Positions 4,101 through 56,544 of a stretch of 64,000 nucleotides of DNA are shown here, piece after piece. How positions within the stretch are numbered: position 1 is the stretch's first letter; each line of letters begins with the position of its first letter. A program made the position numbers and the translations under genes. The notes under the pieces were generated by a model. That model was not told the origin of the DNA. It saw nothing but the letters and a program-made list of their open reading frames with translations, and ran no database searches. The stretch comes from Xestospongia bergquistia (Eukaryota > Porifera > Demospongiae > Haplosclerida > Petrosiidae): NCBI GenBank assembly GCA_963965975.1, contig OZ014413.1, positions 3,792,001 through 3,856,000 of the forward strand. Direction: 5' to 3'.

Positions 4101-4543
4101 ATTGGCAAATACACTCACAAAGCATAGAAGAATTCATTAAAGATGAGGAAATCATGATATAAATCATTGTTATCTATATACACAGACAGTATGACATGTA
4201 ATTAATGACTGACAAATTGTGCTGTCATAATAGCAAGAACTGATAAAAAAAACATGAGTGGCGTATACATTGTGCTATACTGTCTACTTCATTGTTTAAT
4301 GTTACCATGCTTGCTTGTAATGTAGAACAAATAAGTCTGAAATTTTCCTCAAGTTTTACATTCTGTACAATCTTAAAGTTCACAACGTGCACATGAAATG
4401 AAGGTGTTTGTGGTTTTTTGTGTGGTATGCAGTGTTTGGACATGGTTGTGTAATCAATCTCAAAAACAAATTCCCATTCAAATGTCGAAGAGATATCTGC
4501 CAAAATAGTCACGTGTGAGAGAGAACAGAGTTAACATACAATT

Positions 4544-4738
4544 GATAAAAACATCCCTCATGATGATGGTCTTGAGCAGTACATTACTTCCTGGAAAGGT
4601 ACAAAAGAATCATTTACAACAGCTAAGATCATCATCACTCTTGCTGAATTCATCTTGACTCACAACTATTATGAGTTTGAATATAGTAAATTTCTCCGTA
4701 ACATTGTGTCAACAATGGACACTAAAATGGCTCCTTAA
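4544..4738 (+). mobile_element. Penelope-like reverse transcriptase scrap
   Basis: A 64-codon open stretch reading KNIPHDDGL at the start, then TTAKIIITLAEFILTHNYYE and a TMDTKMAP end. This is the layout of the Penelope-like RT segment (N-I-P-H-x-E-G, L-I-E-x-x-L-x-x-N-x-F/Y-x-F, G-T-A-M-G-T-x-x-A-P). No endonuclease or terminal repeat is visible nearby, so it is an isolated fragment, unconnected to the element at 18 kb as far as can be seen. Confidence 0.6.
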
Positions 4739-4739
4739 T

Positions 4740-5955
4740 AAAAAAGAGAAGAATGTGCACATTAGAAGCTACATTTTCAATTGAAAAGAGTACAACAGAC
4801 ACATGATATTAAGACAAATACAGATGGCTGATCACATTCCTTCCAATCAGCTTTGTGTTATAAAATCAACACTTTTAAAGAACATACTCCCTTAAACAAC
4901 GTTCCAACATTTAGAACAAATTAGTCAGAAGTACTTTCTACTCATGTTGTAAGAGCAGCACATTCTTCTACAGCAAGTCAAGATGCTGTACATGTAGCCT
5001 TTTTTTACTAGAAAACATGACCAGAACTCCATCTGTAATATACTTAGTGAATGTTGCTGTGACAGCTTCTCATCAGAGTATTCTACTTAATCCATTGCAG
5101 ACAATCTCTTAAGGCAGATTACATAAGGAAGGCAGGACAAATATTAAGAAATAGAAGGAATGACCATCGACACACTATCAGGTCAAAAAACTTACATTTT
5201 CTGGTAGAGGATCATTGCTTTTGTCAGGAACACTCTGAAAAAGGCCTTAAGATCTCTGTCCTCAAGAGCAACCACCAAAATGATGTCATTTACAACAACT
5301 AATTATAAACTAACTAAACCTTTTATTAGTAGAAACTAATTTAATTAAGATATTGAGATCGTTGAATAAGTTCAGTAGTTAAAACTTAATGCCTTTAAAT
5401 ACCAAACAATGTTATAGAAGATGTATAAATAAAAACTATAAACTATAAAAATACTTTTGCAAAAACTATATAAACTGAATATTATTGAAGATAACCACAA
5501 AAGCTTTGAGTCTTTTACACTTTTGTTTGATTGAATGATTTCTTATAGAGTGGTTTCACTAGAAAGGATAACAATTTTGTGACATGTGATACATCTAATA
5601 AAGCAAGACAGTACCTAATAAGGTCTCAATTCAAATAATAGAATAACAGACAGAGTAGATAATTCCATAGATTCCCATTTTAATTGACATACACCCTCTA
5701 TTTGTGATAATTACCAATATAAACAACTACTGGGACTGTATGTATACATAAACAAGTGCATGTATACAATAAGAACATAGTAATAATTGTGAATTAAATG
5801 ATTTTCTGTCAAAGATTAAAATCAGACAACAAATTAAATTTTAAAAAGCTGTATTTGTTATATAGTAATATCAAATGTAGACAAGAGAAAATAAAGAGTT
5901 TACAAATTTCCAAGAACTACTTTAGTCTGAGGACTCAAGTGACAGTCCGATTTGT
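4740..5955. other. Non-coding stretch
   Basis: AT-rich sequence with no supported gene. The ORF at 5798-6013 on the plus strand is the antisense shadow of the end of transporter copy B. The minus ORF at 4225-4512 has no recognisable motif and is not annotated. Confidence 0.5.
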
Positions 5956-7399
5956 TTCCTGTAATCTACTTCCTGTTCAATGTAATGTTCCTCAGCTATC
6001 AAATGTATATTGACTTCATTCTCTCTCACTCTTAACTTGTAATGCCTAGCGAGTACCAGATACACTATCAGTATGACTAAAATTATCATGCTTTTAAAGA
6101 CAAAATAGTAAAGATTTTGGCTGATGACATCTCCTTCACATTTAAATGATTACCTGCCATTGATACTGATTACATATCCAAGTCCAGATGCTGCATACCA
6201 CAGTCCAATCATAAATCCTCTCATATCATGTGGAGACTGAGCAATTGTAAATTCCAAGGATGTTGGAAAAATTAACACAAATGACATTCCAAACAAAATT
6301 TGAGGGACAATAATACTGGATATGAATTAGTATTTAATTGAAAGTGGTCCTTACAAACAAGCATGATGACATAATAAAGTGGAGTTAATAAAGCAAAAAC
6401 CAAACCCAGACCAATTCTCCTAAGCATACTTGGAATGCATTTATTAAAACATGGATGTATTATCAGTTGATGCACTAGTAGAATAACTATAACAATTATA
6501 AACTCTAATGAGCTATTTAATATAAAACACGAAATGAACTGCAAGCCTTCATCTAAACTAGAAAAGCTATTCCATCTTACCTCTTCTGCACAACATAAAC
6601 CCACTATACTAATGAGTAATGGTGTTAATCTTATAATTGTTTTGACATTCTCTACCTGCTTCTCTGAGAAAGGTCCTCCATACTTTTCCTTACCCAATCC
6701 TAGTCGAGGAGGGTAATCCTCCTCCCAGTAGGTCAAGGCACTTCGATTCCTTGGATACTTGTTCTTTCTAGCATAGTATAGTACTTTAGCAATCGTTTTG
6801 ATAGGGTTGGTAATCTGAGGTGTTGTATCAAACTAGTGTTTAAAGAGATAGTTAGTGATAAGAACTGTAGACACAGCAACACCTGATATAACATAGCACA
6901 CGATGATAAACTCCTTGATAAGACATTGTCCAATTTCAATAAGAACATACACAATTGGTATACTCACAGAGTCCCAATAGATTATAGTACTCAGTTCATC
7001 AGCTGAAGTTCCAATAGCTTGATCAATATTGAACTGGATAATATTGGACCGAAAGCTACAGTATCCAATAACTTGTAAAATATAAGCAAGCCCCATAAGA
7101 ATTAAAATAGGTAGTTCCAATGTGAAGTATATCTTAATAAATAAAACTAAGCCACCAATTAACCAAGACACAAATGAGAAGTGTATATTAGCAATGATGG
7201 ATATATATCTACCAGTCTTAACATCAGCAAATAATCCAAACAGAGGGAATAAGAAGTATGCTACACAATATATAATATCAAAGAAGGGATAGAAACGTTT
7301 GTCATGTTCTACATGGATATCAATGTAAGTGGTTGATGCAATATACCTTAATAAAGTAATTTGAGCATACATCAAAGCATTCCATAGAATAATAAGCAA
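5956..7399 (-). pseudogene. POT/SLC15-like peptide transporter, copy B (nearly full length)
   Basis: The most complete transporter copy, reading right to left. The start region MLIILWNALMYAQITLLRY leads into LFGLFADVKTGRY (GG-x-x-AD motif, first G lost), FRSNIIQFNIDQ, ALTYWEEDYPPRLGLGKEKY and EKQVENVKTIIRLTP (6650). Further helices follow, then FTIAQSPHDMRGFMIGLWY (6250-6200), the position of the family's A-P-x-x-M-R motif. The tail YKLRVRENEVNIH ends near 5956. As read, TAG interrupts at 6833-6835 where copy A has Trp, the frame changes near 6310, and TAA occurs near 6155. Some of these could be short introns, but no good phase-matched splice pair was found. Either a recent pseudogene or a gene with sequencing errors. 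The substrate cannot be inferred. Confidence 0.75.
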
Positions 7400-10800: not shown

Positions 10801-13800
10801 ATATCAAGAACAACTACAAGAAATAAATATATCATTTACTATATCAAGTACATTTATAATTTACCTAGTACTAATATTAAAGTGAGGTGATTATTACTAC
10901 ATGAAACACAGTTATTTAAGAGAACACTAACTCCACCTTCTTTGCACTCACCACATAAAGTACCTATAAAAAATAATAAATTTTGTAAAATGTCATAATA
11001 ATGTAACATGTATACTTTAGTATATTCTACTATTTGATAATTCACTTATAATCTTTTATCTTTTACTACAAACTCTAGTCATTTACCTTTTCTTGAACAC
11101 ACACATTGTTTATCAGTATTAGAATGAACTGAAACACAAGAACTATTACCAGCACTAGTATTAAAGAAACATTGACAATATCCTGGAGGACACCAATAGA
11201 AGTAAAGTGATGCAGGCTCTCCTACTATATGAGTTGCCCAGCGATTAGACTAAGTACAAGAAATACTACAGATATAATAGTAATATACAGTGAGCCTTTT
11301 TAAATCAGACAAAACTGTAATATATAGAATAGTTAATGTAATATAGTAGGTATAGTTAATAAAAGTAAATAATATATTTAAAAAATTAAGCATTTAAAAA
11401 GAATAATTGGGTAATTAAAACATGCTTCACACATTTTAGGTGACCACTGATGATGTTATTATTATAATTATTTGAGATTACCCATACTTTTGTACTTCAT
11501 TGTTATATAATATGATAGTAATTAGGTCATCTAATTTACCTTAATAATAACAGAATCTTGGTCTTGTTCACATGACAGAACATTATGTACTGATTGGTCA
11601 CATTGACATGTTCTGTGACTAGTCATATTAGTAGCAGAAGTTAATACATATCCTCCAATACAGTCTTGATAAATCAGTGGTATAAATGTAGCTTCTGTCT
11701 ATAGTGTGTAGTAATGATGTATTTGTAGTTACGTTAGAATGACAGAATGAAAGACATAAGCAAAGTATCAGTACGATGCTGTGATTGTTCTAGGCAAGCA
11801 GAGAAATTGGTAATGTAATTTGTATTTGTTAAGCTAGAGCATTTATAATGTCTTGTTAATCCTGTCATTTAAGGGTGGTAAAAGAATTTATTGAATTGTT
11901 AAATTTAAATCATTGCTAACAATTTCTCATACAAAGTAGGATATTAGAAATATTTTGTTTTCCAAAGTAAAGATTGGTTTTCTACATGCTATCAGCTACA
12001 GATTTATCAATGATAAAGTGTCATACCTTTTCTCTGATGATCTGGACATCATAGTCAAAGACATTAATGGTACCAAGTGTTTTGTTTGTAGATATATTGT
12101 CAGCTTCATGTACTAAACGGTATGTAAATTTAGCTATAAATGTATCAGGAGAAATGTATGAGTTGTCCTAAACAAGAGGAGCTCATAATTTTGTTAAAAC
12201 ATGTCATCATTATGAATACTATCACTAGTAGTATGGCAATACAGTCACAAAAAATTATATTTATAAAGTAGATGAAATTAAATAATTAAATTTTCTTAAT
12301 AATTATCTATTCACATATAGCAAATGCTACAAAGTAGGATCATCATTTCATCCCTACCATGTTGGATATATAATTCATATACAGTGATATTATATGTTTT
12401 TACTAGAAATACTTACAACATGGTTGTTGTTATCTTGATTAAAAGGAGAAGCGTATTAATGATCCTGAGGGATTTCCAAACTCATCCAGAGCTCTGAGAG
12501 ATAAATTTAACCTTTGACCTGGCCACTCACTCACTTGGTTACTGTTGATGACAAGTTTAACAGAGTCTGTCACAAAAGAATGTGTTTGATTGTATGAGTC
12601 TTGAAATGCTGAGTTTTTGTTGTCATTGCTATAATAAAAGATTTCAAGATTATGACAATGAAAAGACGCTGTTTGGTGATACTTCTATGGATATAAAGGC
12701 CAAAAGCTATGGTACTCCCTTTAAGGTATAGGGTTAATTTTATCTATGGTTAAATTGCCTAACTTGTAGCATAACTAACATATAACTAACTTATCTTGTT
12801 GCTACATATACCACAGCTTTCATTTGGAAGTTGCATATATACACTAGAATATAAAATAGTATAAAATGTGGATAAGCCTCCTAGAAACACTCCAATGTTC
12901 AAAGAACGTCACTGTTACTTGGCATGCAAAGTGTGACATGGTGGCAGGTAGAAACGTTAATAACTAGAACAGTCAACATATGACAAATGATAAGAATATG
13001 AACCTTTTATGTGATATCACAAGAATACTATTGCATTCAGTTACCTGACTTGGAAGATAGGCCATTGAGGAAAGAATGATTCATCAAATGATTGTATGAC
13101 TCTATTACTAACCCAAGAACAAGATATTAAACTAGTAGCATATACTGCAGCACCAAACCAAGCTATGTTACCAGTAAAAGTGATGTTAATTCCAGTCTGA
13201 AATATAAAGAAATATATAATTTATGACATCAATCTGATAATTTTGTATAGATATATCAGTGTAGGATATATCGTCTATCGTTAAAAAAGGGTTAATAAAC
13301 AAAGAGGTAACAGTCATAAATAAACTTTCAGGGGAATGTCTGTAACAATTAGATTGGATTACTGGACTGAACATTTGAACTTGCAGAATTTGTATATGTA
13401 AATAATTTGGATATGGGCAGCCTCCATGAGCCTGTAGTCTGGCTGGTTAAACCACCTCAAATAAAAGGCACTCCATAACATATACCCATTAAGGTGATAA
13501 ACACGCTTATTTTCTTACTATAAGTTAGGTTATAATTTTGCAACTATCATTGAAACCAGGACATGATTATGCTTGAGTTAGAGCTAACTTGGGTATTAAT
13601 TTATTAAAGAATACACAAAGAATTGAAGTTACTGACCACCTGTCAATCATCTCAGACATCTAGACGTACATATTAAAGGGTAACTGAACCCCAAAATTTT
13701 TTTGTTTGCAATTTGTTTGTTATGAAGTACTATTACCTGCAAAAATATCCAAAATTGCAAAAACGCGCTACTTCCACTCGAAATTTTGGATCAAAAGTTG

Positions 13801-16800
13801 CAGATTTCTAATTTGTCAAAAATACCTCCGTTGATGGGCGTGGTCAATCGGTGACGTACAAGGGGGAACACGTTTATACATGTGATAAGAGTAAGAATGG
13901 GAAAAAGATGTGTAGTAGCCAACTGTAGCAGTACCCACAAGGATAAAGTTAGCCTGTTCACATTCCCAAAGAATGCTCAACTGAGAGCAACGCGGAACAG
14001 GCAGATAAAGACCACTAGAGCCGACCGGCATTCTTCTTCAGAGTACTCATGTGTGTGTAGTAAGCACTTTACTCATACAAATGAGATATAATAGGACATT
14101 TGAAGTTTTTATTTGGTATTTTAATATGTTTATATGCAAAAGAAAGTAAAAATAATCCTATAATTCTCAATCATTACAGAGAAGTACTTAAAATAGCAAC
14201 AGCAGGCATCATGCCAGAAAAAGTGGTTGTTCCACCTCCATTATGTAGCACATATGATAAACCAGTGAAGGAGAAAGCTATTTTAGAGCATAAAAGTAGA
14301 TTTAAGTAATCAATAATTAATTAATCATATTTTAAAACCAACATAATTTCCTTGAGAAGGAAATTGTTCTTGTATTTTATTAACAGCACAAGCCGGTAAG
14401 ACAACTCGGTTGTGTCTTCCAAGCCAGCGCCAGCACCAACTGACTAACTGACAATATGCTGTATGCCGTAATTGTCTGCAATAAAATAGAAGCATACTTA
14501 CTCATGTAAGGAACCATGGCGTGCACTAGACCCATAATGCTGACGGTAGACATAATAGGCAGTCTGAAGTACCCACATGTCAAGACAAACATTGTCAAAA
14601 CCGGGATGGTCTGTAATACACTTCACTGGTGAGCTGGATTGGGTAACATGACTTTTCTTGTCTTGAACTTCTTGTATCTCACAGCAGCAGACACATTCAA
14701 TAGCAGTTGGCATAGGTACACAATCGCCACAGTTACACCTTCCTCTAGTTTATTACATTTCTACTATTTTTTTAGTCTTACCAATTAGTATTTCCAAGCC
14801 TGCTACTCTCTGGTGAGTCCTGGTCATCAGATTCACTGCTGCTACTAGAGCCATTGCTACTATCTGTTACCTCTGGCTCAAACAGAAAAGGCTGAGCTCC
14901 ATGTAATTGCTCCTCATCACTGTCATTGTTAATGGAAGACAGAGGAGAACATGAAGGTGATGACTGCTCTAATGTTGAATGCTCTTCATCAGACGCGTTC
15001 CCCCTTGTACGTCACCGATTGACCACGCCCACTAACGGAAGTATTTTTGACAAAATAGAAATCTGCAACTTTTGATCCAAAATTTCGAGCAGAAGTAGCG
15101 CGTTTTTGGAATTTTGGATATTTTTGCAGGTAATAGTACTTCATCATAAACAAATTGCAAACCAAAAAATTTGGGGGTTCAGTTACCCTTTAAGCTTTTG
15201 TAAGAATTATTGCTATGGAAGAATTTGAAATAGCCCATTTTAACAAATATGTGATGTACACTTCTAGGATATACCAACACAGACATATCTAATTATTTCT
15301 ATTCATACACATGTGGCTGTAGATCAACACATTTCCAGTTAAAAATAGTTTTGTTAATATTGACAATACAACTTTGGTTGGGTGGGCAATTTGTGGGTAA
15401 AGAACGCTATTTTGCAAGGTCAAAAGGTCACTTCTGTACTCCAGTTCAGTTAGTTATGTCCCCAGACTACCATGTTCCTGAACAAAGAGAGTCTGGTGCA
15501 TTTGCTTCAAATTCTTGGTCCTAGCATCATAGTGTGACATGTCAACTCCATGTACTCATATACCAATGATCACATCACAAGTTGCTAATGGTCATGTGAC
15601 ACATGATAAGATTAAACCTAAGCAACAATCAACTACAGTTTACAACATAATTATAGCTATCCCTCAATTACTTGTACACAAAACATCCATTCCACGTACA
15701 AAGAAAATACATGAACAAGTTTCCGAGACCAGCAATTCCTCAGAGGTGTCAAAATGTAGCATTCACATGTTTTCTTACAAGGTCATATGATCAATGACAT
15801 CATATTGATGACACTAGGACTGGGAACTCAGAGCAAATGCATTAAACTGCCTTTTTGCTTGGGGTATGTGGTAATCTAGGGATGAGACTAAGACCAGTAA
15901 TCCAGTCCAGTGATTACAGACAGCGCTTTTAGGAAGGCTAGTTCAATCAAGTGTGTAAACACTGGGCTGGACTGGCCTTTAATTATTTGTGGGTATGTAG
16001 GTAAAGGTTCATGCCGGATCAACCTAATGTTGTATACAATTCACAATATTAAAATAAGATAACATTATGCCCTTTGATTTTTTGCATATATACAAGCTGT
16101 ATATGTTAAACTTCACAAATAATTTAGATTATATTCAAAAGCAAGCTGTCTGTAGGCCACCGAGGTCAGTCTTGTATAAAAGACTCATTTAAATGATAAT
16201 ATCTTGATTTATGAAGTGGTCATTTGTCAGAATTTCATGCATTACTTTTACTGTTAATGTTGACATTTTGGTCTGGTCTTGCCAACACTAACTGTTTACC
16301 TTGAACAGTCTTATTGACAGATATATAATATAATTCATGCATGATATGATACATGCACACAAAACACAAAAGCTTTTAGCTGTAAGATTGTAGAGTTATT
16401 ATATAAGCTGAACTGAAGCTACCAGCAGTCTTGTATTGTAGTCATGCCTAAGTCACACCCACATAAATAACTAAAGGACACAATAGTCCAGTCTAGTGAC
16501 TCCTAGTTCTAAGTTTTGTAAGAATCACAATTGCTAGAATACACCTTTTTAAAAGTGGAAACCTTGTATGAAAAACAATAACTCTATGTAAAAGTATATC
16601 TTAACAGCCAAGCTGTGACATTTGGAGTTATATGTACATCTACTATTTTATGTGAATGATACCTGAATGATGAGTTCACAATCACTACATTGTCTGCTTC
16701 AAATATTCGAATTGGAAGTGGGCAATGATCGAAGTGAACATTTTCAAAACTGATAAAGTCAGATCTACTGAAATACAAGGAATGAAGGTTACCAGTTTGA

Positions 16801-18191: not shown

Positions 18192-19250
18192 TTAACTATG
18201 TCCTATCCTAGAGAAATGTGCTAAATAGTACTTGTTTTCGTGTCGGCATTTTGAAACGAGTTCGGATCTTTTATTCAAGGTGGTGGTTTTGTCGGCGTTG
18301 ATGATAGAGAGCTTTTCCGTTAGGCAAAGGTTGCACCGCTTTGTTGTGTTGGAGTAGGCTTGTGCCCTTCGGTTTATTGACCAAGTAATTTTGAATTCCT
18401 TACCTTCTTTCTTCAATTGCCAAACATACTTCGATAGTTCCGTGCTATTTCCGTATTTCTCGTCCCTAATTGATTGCATGTGGTTGGAATATCTCTGCTT
18501 GAAGGCGTGTTTGGTTAGGCCTATGTACACCTTTTTCTCATTTCTTCTCATGTTTTCGACTTCTGGATTGTAGATGATGTTATTAGACTGGCCTTCGCCG
18601 TTTAGTGGGCATAGGTCTTTTTTTCGGCAGTTACAGGTTTTCTGCGTGCGTGTGCTGGTGTCCTTTGAGACCTCATTATTGTGTGCCTTGATGATGTTGG
18701 CTAGGTTTGGCATGCAGCTGTAGCTGACCTTAACAGTGTCTTTGTTGAATATTTTGTGTAGCCTTGAGTTTTCCGGGAAATGCTTGGCGATCAGCTTTAG
18801 GAATTTTTGGCCTACATTCGTTGATACGTTTTTGCTGAATGGTGAGTTGAACCGTATGATGTTGCGCTGTCGGTTACGTTTGCTCTTTTTTGGTTGGTCG
18901 TCGCTGTAATGTAGGTTTTCCAAGTAGCCGCAGGATTTGAGTGCATCTACATAGAGGGGAGCAGCTTGGTTGAAGATTTCTTTGTCATGCGAGATGTCAG
19001 AGATGCGTCTGCTGATCGAATCTGGCAGATTCTTGATGATGTTAGGTGGGTGGTTAGACTGCTTGTGGATGTAGACTGGTTTGTCGTTCGGCTTTCTATA
19101 AGGGTAGTACTTACCATTGTTCAAGTTTAGGGTGATGTCAAGAAAATTTACAACTTTTAGGTTGGCTTGGATGGTGATTCTGAGGCCAGTCTCTTTGAAG
19201 ATCCGAACTCGTTTCAAAATGCCGACACGAAAACAAGTACTATTTAGCAC
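18192..19250 (-). CDS. Penelope-like ORF, C-terminal part with GIY-YIG endonuclease
   Basis: A 352-codon frame. Its first ~20 codons lie in the terminal repeat and are not original coding start. True element coding begins about ANLKVVNFLDITLNLNNGKY, the thumb/linker part after the RT palm, followed by YIHKQSNHPPNIIKNLP. A cysteine-rich linker (CNCRKKDLCPLNG, near 18620) precedes the GIY-YIG nuclease: VYIGLTKHAFKQRYSNHMQS with the conserved Y-I-G, R and H, then LSKYVWQLK and ITWSI. These nick DNA for retrotransposition. RT palm motifs are absent, so the copy is dead on arrival through 5' truncation, but the remaining frame is fully open, indicating a young insertion. Confidence 0.85.
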   Translation of the reverse strand: MLNSTCFRVGILKRVRIFKETGLRITIQANLKVVNFLDITLNLNNGKYYPYRKPNDKPVYIHKQSNHPPNIIKNLPDSISRRISDISHDKEIFNQAAPLYVDALKSCGYLENLHYSDDQPKKSKRNRQRNIIRFNSPFSKNVSTNVGQKFLKLIAKHFPENSRLHKIFNKDTVKVSYSCMPNLANIIKAHNNEVSKDTSTRTQKTCNCRKKDLCPLNGEGQSNNIIYNPEVENMRRNEKKVYIGLTKHAFKQRYSNHMQSIRDEKYGNSTELSKYVWQLKKEGKEFKITWSINRRAQAYSNTTKRCNLCLTEKLSIINADKTTTLNKRSELVSKCRHENKYYLAHFSRIGHS

Positions 19251-19321
19251 ATTTCTCTAGGAATAGGACATAGTTAACACCTCGATGCTATATAACCAGC
19301 CTGTAAATAGAGTAGTATCCA

Positions 19322-25316: not shown

Positions 25317-28300
25317 CCCTTTAATAACCAATCCGCGCATGCGCGGTTTCACCATGTGACTGTTAAAATGAAACTTTTGGTGCCGTTTTCTCTTACATTT
25401 TTCTCGTGATTTGTGTGTGGAAACTCTTCATACAGGTAAACCTTACTTAATTATACCTTGTTCTTCATATTGTGTTGTTATTTTGGCGAAGAAAATGTAC
25501 GGTTGTTGTGTTTTCAAGGAATGTTGTGGTGTAATTTTGCTGAGTTTATAGGTAAGTAATCGATGTTATTTATCCTTTTTACTTTTGGTTATACATAAAA
25601 TATTATGATATAAATGAACAGAAAAGACTTAAGTAAGGTTAGTACTTAGTGTGGTACTGTTCAAAGCATGACCTGTCATCATCAGTAGATCTTGATTGTA
25701 CACATAGGTGTATGTTACACTGACAACAAACTATAATTGTTTCATGTCTTTGGTTTAGATTGTACCAACAATGATAACATCTTCCTTTTTTTGCCCCTTT
25801 TATAAGAAAGTGATGAACAGTTCCAAAACTTCTTCGTTTTGTTGGTGTTGTTGACAAATCAAGTGCCGTAGAGAAAATATCAGTCAGTAAGCTATATCTT
25901 TTCCTGTTGTTGTAAGTAGAAATTAAATTTTTAGCCAACTGCAGACGGAAGTGTTTATATTGCTGCCAACTTCTAAAATCAGATCTCGGTGCGAAGTTCT
26001 TCAATAAGACAAATGAGTTAGAGATGGAACATTCAAGAAGAAAATAGAATATGTACCTGAGGTGAGGTAGTTATAATCAAAAATAACAATTGATTGATAG
26101 TCCTTACCTATAGTACTTTCTTGATTTTAGTTTTCTTTGATAATAGGATCGCATCTGATCTGCTCGATCCACCCCACACATAAATTTATTATAAACTGTT
26201 GTGTGAGTTGGTGTTTTCACAGTTATTTTTGTTCCATCTTTTTCTTTCCGTTGACAGGTTGTTGTGGATGGATTGCAGTTGGTGGAAATAACGTACACAA
26301 GTCTTTTATCTTGTTTTACAATGTTTCCGCTTTGAACAAATACACAATCACCTCTTTGAAGATCACCTAAATGTTTATCAATAGGTTATCACACATGCAA
26401 TATTATTTATTACACCATTATCATAATTGTTATATTTTATTTACCTTGTTTGATTTCTTTTATCTGAGCGGGTACAAATTTTCTATTTATTCGAAATGTA
26501 CCACAGGCATATATTTCATCTTTGAGAAGCTTCTCTAACAGGGGAACAGTTGTGATATAGTTATCAAAGAATAGATGATAGTTCCCTCCTACTAATTCTT
26601 TTGATAGCTTTACAACAACTGATTCTCCTAGGTTATTTGTGACATTTTACCCATCCTTACCACTATATATATCGAACTGGCAAATGTATCCATTTGAGCT
26701 ATCTGCCCTTACCCATGCCTTGATGCCTCTTCTAATTGGTTTCTTAGGGACATATTGCTTCAAACTAGACCTACCCTTGAACCTAATCATTGCCTCGTCA
26801 ATTGAGTTTTCTTTATGAGGCATGTAGCTGTCAATCATTTTTGCATTTACAATATCAATAATTGGTCTTATTTTCCCAAGTTTATCATAACCATCTTCTC
26901 CCCTTTTAGGTAGTGTAGCGTTATCAACAAAATGTAAATACCTTCTAATTTCAATAAATCTATTTCGGCTTATTCTGCTAACCACAAGAAAATAATGTAG
27001 CATTGGACTAGTAGATCAGTAATCATAAAGGTGCGGTAACTTCACTATCCCCATAAGCACAATAAATCAAATAAACGCCCTTATTTCATTCACATTGGTT
27101 TCCCAGGTGGTATCATCTTTCTTCAAACAGTCTTTAGCATACCTGTTTGTCTCTCTTACAATTACACTTATGAGCTCATCAGAGAAGAAAGTATCGAATA
27201 TCTCTATAGAATTAGCTATAGGTATTGTTGGGCCTACTTGTTTTGTAAATGGTTTTACAATCACATCTGACAATGTAGTAGACCATATTCTTGTATCCTC
27301 ACTACTGTTACTAGGTCCACCACTATCACTACCACGTTGATGACTACCACCAGCTCCACCTCTTACACTACCACATCCACCTCTTCCTCTACCACGTCTA
27401 CTAGTACCACATCCATCTCTTCCTCTACCACGTCCACATTCACTAATAACATGTCGACCCCTACTACCAGTTCCACCTCTTCCATTACCACTTCCACTGC
27501 TACCATGCCTGCTACTACCTCTTTCCCTACCTCGTCCTCTTTGCATACCACCTCTTGTGCTACTTTGTCCACCTGTCAAAGGACCGTGTCCTCCTCCACC
27601 ATTGTTTGCCAATTGTTCACAAATTTCTTCTTCATCATCATCATCATCACTATTATCATCTTCATTTTGAGCAAACTGTAAGTAGAATAAATAAATATTA
27701 CTTCATGCATATTTTCATAGTTATATATTACATCAATTGTAACTATGTTTTCTTCAATTTCTTCATCACTACAGCTGGAATCAGTAATACAAAAGTCATC
27801 ATCGCTTCCTGAGAATATAATTTCATCATCAGACTCCTCTAGCATCTGCAGAACAGCACTTACATCCATTATTTAGCAACACCTGATTGCATATCACTTT
27901 TACCTCCTTTTACAATAATAAATTGATAGACACGCCCACACGCAAAGCCTTTCTTGAATTGCGTGTTTCATGCTTTAGCTATATTTTTCCTACTTTAGTT
28001 GTAACTCTACTTCTCATGTAACTATGCCTAGATAACTTCCTAACATTGTAGAAGATTGTTGAGACTGATTTCAAATTTCGTTTCATCTTAGAGTAAGTCA
28101 CGTACATTTTTTACATTATTCATTCTAGGTCACTTCTATTTGAAGCTACAAATCTGATATTGTAAACAAAGCTCGAATCATTAATGGTAAATAAGTGTTC
28201 CATGTTACCATAGCTTTGAAACCAGTATTTTAATTTGTTTCATAATTCTATAATATATGGTTAAGGTTAGTACATTCGTATTTTCAAAAAGAAAGTTATT

Positions 28301-55744: not shown

Positions 55745-56544
55745 CTTTTAAGTGCGAATGGAATGGTACTTTAATTTAGAGAAGGCCCCCTGTTGGGGAG
55801 GTTTCTTTGGTTAAGTCAGCCAAAAGATGTCTAAAACGAACCATTGGTCAAGCAAAACTGACCTACAATGATTTATCAACTGTTGTCACTGAAGTCGAAA
55901 TGATTATCATTTCTCGTCCACTTTCATATGTCTCAACAGAAGACCTAGAAGAACCATTGACTCCCTCCCATTTACATATTGGTCATTGGCTCCTCAGCCT
56001 TCCCGAATTGACAATTGAGAAGGATTCTAATGATCCTGACTTTCATGTCGGCCCTCTATCAGCAGCTGATTTAACAAGGAGGCTGAGACATCTTAGCAAC
56101 ACCATGGATCAGTGTTGGAAAAGATGGAAGGAGTATTTATCAGAGTTGAGGGAATGTCATAGCTATGGCAAAGGGACCCAGAGTCCTTGTGATCCCATTG
56201 TCATCAGAGACATTGTCTTGGTCTATGATCAAGATCATCCGAGGACATTTTGGAGGCTAGCCAAGGTTAAAGACCTAATCAAGGGTTCAGATGGTAAAAT
56301 ACAAGGGGCCATCATTCAAATTGGTTCCAAGGGAGGAAAATCATCTATTCTTAGGAGACCAATCCAACATCTTTACCCACTTGAGGTTACTTGTATAGAC
56401 AAGACTGAAACAGTCAATCAAAACGTTAATCAATTACCAGACACAATTACTGATGTAGAAAAAACATCTGAATCGAGCAGCTGCACGTGCTGCACTGGAG
56501 AGAATGAAAACCTGGTGTACAGAATTGAACATGTTGAGATTTGA
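55745..56544 (+). mobile_element. BEL/Pao LTR retrotransposon fossil (integrase C-terminal part)
   Basis: Only the 3' portion of a BEL/Pao-type polyprotein is present, with the end of the integrase core and the DUF5641-type C-terminal domain: LTPSHLHIGHWLLSLPEL region, WKRWKEYLSELRE, DIVLVYDQDHPRTFWRLAKV and the RRPIQHLYPLE end typical of the family. No LTRs, gag, protease or RT are seen nearby. It is a broken, incomplete fossil with at least one break, but the long open stretch suggests it is not very old. Confidence 0.85.

Follow-up and report, generated by a model that had tools for sequence, protein, structure and literature searches.

We describe a TTAA-bounded element of 1513 bp in the sponge Xestospongia bergquistia, located at 13677-15189 of a 64,000-nt stretch of contig OZ014413.1 (assembly GCA_963965975.1, positions 3,792,001 to 3,856,000), hereafter the window. 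The element very probably derives from a Kolobok DNA transposon of the Kol0 lineage and is non-autonomous, with an internal deletion. Its minus strand holds a gene homologous to the ballast of the P2X7 receptor, which we interpret as KolX, the second gene of the element itself, and not as the foreign cargo that the original prediction for this DNA had supposed. Kol0 elements, which occur in sponges among others, encode KolX as a second protein similar to human P2X7 residues 476-595, the ballast, and P2X7 is held to have arisen when a P2X4-like gene fused with KolX (Kojima & Bao 2022, PMC9587614; this paper, PMC7016195 and PMC6004289 are cited for the portions covered here). The link between P2X7 and Kolobok is real but was published in 2022. 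Therefore, the statement that no transposon with this cargo had been described does not hold, and the proposal that mobile elements could supply the ballast is right but already in print.

The termini of the element agree with the published Kolobok rules. TTAA copies lie directly outside both ends, forming the 4-bp target-site duplication of Kolobok, and both termini begin with the same outer 16 bases, AGGGTAACTGAACCCC. The inverted terminal repeats measure 201 nt including the TTAA and are 94% complementary. The element ends are AGGG..CCCT, in which AGG...CCT conforms to 5'-RR...YY-3' and to the AGGRR type. Kolobok elements use a TTAA target with 5'-RR/YY-3' termini (PMC9587614) and have AGGRR termini (PMC6004289), so that both the ends and the TTAA duplications count for the Kolobok assignment. 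With the THAP match described below, the predicted 1.5-kb TTAA/THAP element with 197-bp inverted repeats is borne out.

On the plus strand, two remnants of a transposase are found. The first is a THAP domain matching PF05485 (E 3.1e-9, 37.9 bits, cut-off 23.9), which is truncated though above the Pfam cut-off, covering profile positions 1-60 of 87 and corresponding to THAP residues 1-59 of a relative, L055 (tblastn). The AVPTIF box present in the L024, L046, L054 and L055 frames is missing from the window copy. The second remnant is a C-terminal tail, 93% identical to the L023 tail (tblastn), and a similar tail closes the transposase of L056. The DDE core with its C/DxxH motif and the H2CH C-terminal domain are both missing from the window copy by tblastn. 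In sister copies and relatives we take one region to be H2CH; a piece of it is kept in L019, L020 and both L022 copies, and also in L043, L046, L055 and L056 among others. Since the sisters retain the AVPTIF box (L024) and the H2CH piece, the window THAP exon represents the front end of a transposase and not the separate gene that had been assumed. The segment between the two remnants (element positions 399-507), which has a close match elsewhere in the genome, is perhaps tied to the internal deletion as filler from its repair.

On the minus strand, GT-AG introns at 14781-14739 and 14501-14476 join three open frames into a protein of 205 residues, the exon joins being predicted from sequence only. 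The spliced protein matches P2RX7_C (PF20478) with E 5.8e-17 (62.7 bits, cut-off 23.5, profile positions 59-192 of 192), the sole Pfam family to match it at E <= 1. Among PDB chains, P2X7 alone matches at E <= 10 (four distinct sequences, best E 3.9e-7). The three cysteine clusters of the ballast appear as NWCNCGDC, CCC..CIT and VLPAC; the consensus is PxWCxCx2C, CC..CIT and (L/I/V)PSC (PMC7016195), from which the window clusters depart at the P two before W and at the S of PSC. A chance cysteine pattern might be suspected from exons 1 and 2, neither of which matched Pfam at E <= 1 when tried singly. Exon 3, however, matches PF20478 in the genome profile search (E 1.1e-6), and the local score against a P2X7 fragment is 136, compared with maxima of 62 in 2000 composition shuffles and 59 in 2000 shuffles with cysteines fixed. 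No shuffle in either control reaches the observed score, and the sister copies share the exon layout. Together with the Pfam and PDB results, this rejects chance, to which we attach a negligible probability. The predicted exons constitute a real homolog of the P2X7 ballast, and the proposed three-exon protein with the ballast signature, scoring better to P2X7 than shuffled cysteine-rich sequence, stands. The exon-1 frame, however, has no ATG (an upstream exon is possible), and intron 2 is 26 nt long against 55 nt in the three KolX-bearing sisters. Production of the full protein from the window copy is therefore doubtful. An AlphaFold2 model of the L043 KolX frame, made from two sequences only, has a mean predicted local distance difference test score of 35.5.

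Searching the genome (146 Mb, 21 contigs) with the 197-bp repeat gives 18 matches, which we read as ten copies: the window copy, L019, L020, L021, two in L022, L023, L024, L025 and L026. Five of them (window, L019, L020, L023 and L025) have TTAA at both ends. The expectation that sister copies carry the ballast exons holds in part, as KolX is present along its length in four of the ten (window, L023, L024 and L026) and as remnants in two (L019 and L020), and is missing from the other four. For the window KolX, tblastn gave exon 2 alone, because it merges exons across introns. The transposase C-terminal tail is found in the window copy, L019, L020, L023 and L026. Alignment of the four KolX-bearing copies reveals frame-breaking changes in three: L023 has in-frame stops, L024 an exon-1 frame without ATG and one base lost at the end of exon 1, and L026 frame-changing insertions and deletions plus a stop. 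The two copies in L022 (601-9901) lie 4846 bases apart in blocks identical over 4.2 kb, so they probably come from one insertion duplicated together with its flanks. L023, the C15 copy of 5334 bp, was considered as an autonomous copy and rejected, because its extra 3 kb (4104-7097) contain a 441-residue MULE-type frame (PF10551, E 6.6e-11); this stretch is likely a nested transposon insertion.

The transposase core is found in relatives outside the window repeat family. L056 (C10:3.07 Mb) has a THAP domain, three core pieces, the H2CH region and the tail on its plus strand and a convergent KolX on its minus strand. L055 (C1:21.46 Mb) is bounded by TTAA/AGGGTAACAGAAA, and its transposase contains GGDGRADSPG, VTDRRSQ and DIWH; L056 holds matching core pieces. 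DIWH fits the C/DxxH motif named for the Kolobok core (PMC9587614). L053 combines TTAA ends, a THAP domain, part of the core and KolX. Near the right end of its KolX element (L053 5638-5880), an 81-residue minus-strand frame is presumably a MULE-type fragment.

The pairing of KolX with Kolobok pieces recurs throughout the genome. PF20478 gives 16 genome matches, 12 of them outside the window repeat family. Of the 16, 15 have Kolobok pieces beside KolX and convergent with it (tblastn), although the tail is matched only weakly at L047 and L051 (E near 1e-4). At L050 no Kolobok pieces were detected, and its KolX resembles that of L046 by eye. Exon 2 of L056 as query gives 47 matches, which merge with the 16 into 48 KolX-like loci; at 30 of these, THAP or H2CH lies no more than 3 kb away. 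All 33 THAP/H2CH-KolX pairs are convergent, whereas 2000 random placements, for which the size of C14 was assumed, average 0.23 and never exceed 3. These data bear on the capture of a stand-alone host ballast gene by one TTAA/THAP element. A sponge and Cnidaria reportedly have stand-alone ballast proteins (PMC7016195), and five of the 12 outside loci (L045, L047, L050, L051 and L052) show no TTAA-flanked repeats in the fetched stretches, so that some may be host genes today. The other seven (L043, L044, L046, L048, L049, L053 and L054) do have TTAA-adjoining terminal repeats. Several distinct terminal repeats accompany the same convergent pairing, nearly every P2RX7_C match adjoins Kolobok pieces, and KolX is itself a published Kolobok protein (PMC9587614). 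We therefore reject capture by a single element, which is very unlikely. The P2X channel domain (PF00864) gives five genome matches, all at C7:8116584-8118439; among the matches listed, the closest KolX match on C7 is more than 1 Mb away.

Two KolX elements of a repeat family other than that of the window, at L048 4046-6027 (C8) and L049 3963-5954 (C10), share 1982 identical bp and sit at different TTAA sites, which points to recent transposition of KolX-bearing elements in this genome. No transposase core was detected in either. Core-less elements of this kind might be a persistent mobile form here, keeping and spreading KolX because it helps them move, in trans with an outside transposase, and the KolX-bearing non-autonomous state would then be selected. 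If so, ballast genes would travel in elements in which KolX is the sole near-complete protein gene. The 48 KolX-like loci against three core loci, with the queries used, and the L048/L049 pair fit this idea. However, the core query was taken from a single family and could overlook others, and the reading frame is broken in three of four KolX copies of the window family. The ratio of nonsynonymous to synonymous changes in L043, L044, L048 and L049, computed for two KolX frames with few changes, ranges from 0.25 to 1.69 or is undefined, the exon 2+3 frame being a continuous one that may include intron sequence; an H2CH control row with a mixed reading frame was left out. A clear purifying signal on KolX was not seen in these core-less copies. 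In addition, KolX lies close to an end of the element, where its position by itself may protect it from internal deletions. We consider such a selected state improbable, and a non-autonomous, internally deleted Kol0 derivative remains our reading of the window element.

Several observations weigh against this reading. The core is absent by tblastn from all ten repeat-family copies, which answers within the family the question whether further copies carry both genes plus a Kolobok transposase. One core query gives five matches at three genome loci, and the autonomous partner of the window family is not among its ten copies. The core has weak matches to Pfam, namely MULE (E 1.9e-4) and Mutator (E 1.1e-3), neither of which reaches its cut-off. 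In the 6.5 kb fetched for L056, terminal repeats beside TTAA were not seen, KolX is not matched at L055, and no single copy was seen with ends, core and complete KolX together. At 18 of the 48 KolX-like loci there is no THAP or H2CH match within 3 kb; some of these are weak matches (E near 5e-4), possibly due to chance, and three of them (L045, L047 and L051) do carry THAP or tail pieces. Finally, the argument for an accessory role of KolX is one of linkage.

In the history that we favor, the full ancestral element would have encoded a THAP-DDE-H2CH transposase and KolX, placed tail-to-tail on opposite strands. A deletion would then have taken most of the transposase apart from a shortened THAP exon and the final exon. 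The exons of KolX would have survived it and are probably decaying. A transposase made elsewhere in the genome most likely bound the terminal repeats through its THAP domain and pasted the element into TTAA, as the ends and published Kolobok biology suggest. KolX would most likely be an accessory protein of transposition, a role supported by its recurrent placement in these elements.

Table 1. Features of the Kolobok-derived element and its flanks (window positions)
Feature	Position	Strand	Evidence
Left TTAA target-site duplication	13673..13676		sequence, termini listing
Left terminal inverted repeat, 197 bp, starts AGGGTAACTGAACCCC	13677..13873	+	repeat detection; genome query
THAP domain, remnant of transposase exon 1, ends before the AVPTIF box of relatives	13897..14073	+	PF05485, tblastn
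Segment between the two transposase remnants	14075..14183		97% identity to C4:1730877-1730986
Last transposase exon, C-terminal tail ending AILEHKSRFK; stop 14307-14309	14181..14306	+	tblastn, frame
KolX exon 3, LRHTAY ... VLPACAVNKI ... YVGFK; stop 14327-14325	14328..14475	-	PF20478
KolX intron 2, 26 nt, GT-AG, predicted	14476..14501	-	splice model; sister alignment
KolX exon 2, clusters WCNCGDC, CVCCCE, CITD	14502..14738	-	splice model, Pfam and PDB matches
KolX intron 1, 43 nt, GT-AG, predicted	14739..14781	-	splice model; sister alignment
KolX exon 1, acidic/Ser-rich N-terminal part, open frame without ATG	14782..15011	-	aligned with L023, L024, L026
Right terminal inverted repeat	14993..15189	-	repeat detection
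Right TTAA target-site duplication	15190..15193		sequence, termini listing

Other parts of the window also hold transposon-like frames. At 27067-27702, a frame with an Arg/Gly-rich region matches DDE_Tnp_1_7 (E 5.3e-5), which we take to be of piggyBac type, presumably another TTAA-using class. A frame of 354 residues at 18192-19256 has no Pfam match at E <= 0.01 and, as we take it, resembles the end of a Penelope-type reverse transcriptase with a GIY-YIG motif. DUF5641, a domain often found at the end of BEL/Pao-type polyproteins, matches at 55780-56544 (E 6.4e-12). Rfam and tRNA scans of the window gave no match each.

Compared with the P2X7 ballast, the Zn-coordinating cysteine domain P2RX7_C, the window protein has the same three cysteine clusters, LRHxAY and the FPxQGxYxGFK end. 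It lacks the P2X channel part, with no PF00864 domain, and has a longer insert before CIT. Five residues of rat P2X7 contact guanosine diphosphate (PMC7016195); by alignment to a PDB P2X7 chain, the equivalents of R546 and H547 are kept in the window protein, and those of R574, R578 and K583 are V, Q and S. Rump et al. 2020 proposed that a stand-alone ballast was captured (PMC7016195), and the string 'transpos' occurs 0 times in the main text of that paper. Nanor and nanor-like proteins (PTHR36981) are likewise stand-alone ballast proteins, but host genes, likened here by description; Kojima & Bao read Nanor as domesticated KolX (PMC9587614). T2-MITE and Xenopus Kolobok elements share TTAA, AGGRR ends and non-autonomous copies held to be dependent on a Kolobok transposase, but unlike for the window element, KolX is unmentioned in the portions of PMC6004289 covered.

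The closest system is the Kol0 lineage, with Kolobok-1_XT as representative (PMC9587614). The window copy differs from it in having no transposase core and probably no working KolX. The strict convergent gene order is new here, being absent from the Kol0 account in PMC9587614 as far as covered, as are the many KolX copies that adjoin no detected core. The window copy itself adds little beyond support from one more genome for the published view that Kolobok transposons house ballast domains and can move them, the route by which P2X7 is held to have gained its tail. The window element has the same TTAA, AGGG ends, THAP domain and ballast-homologous second protein as Kol0, and its sister copies share the H2CH likeness.

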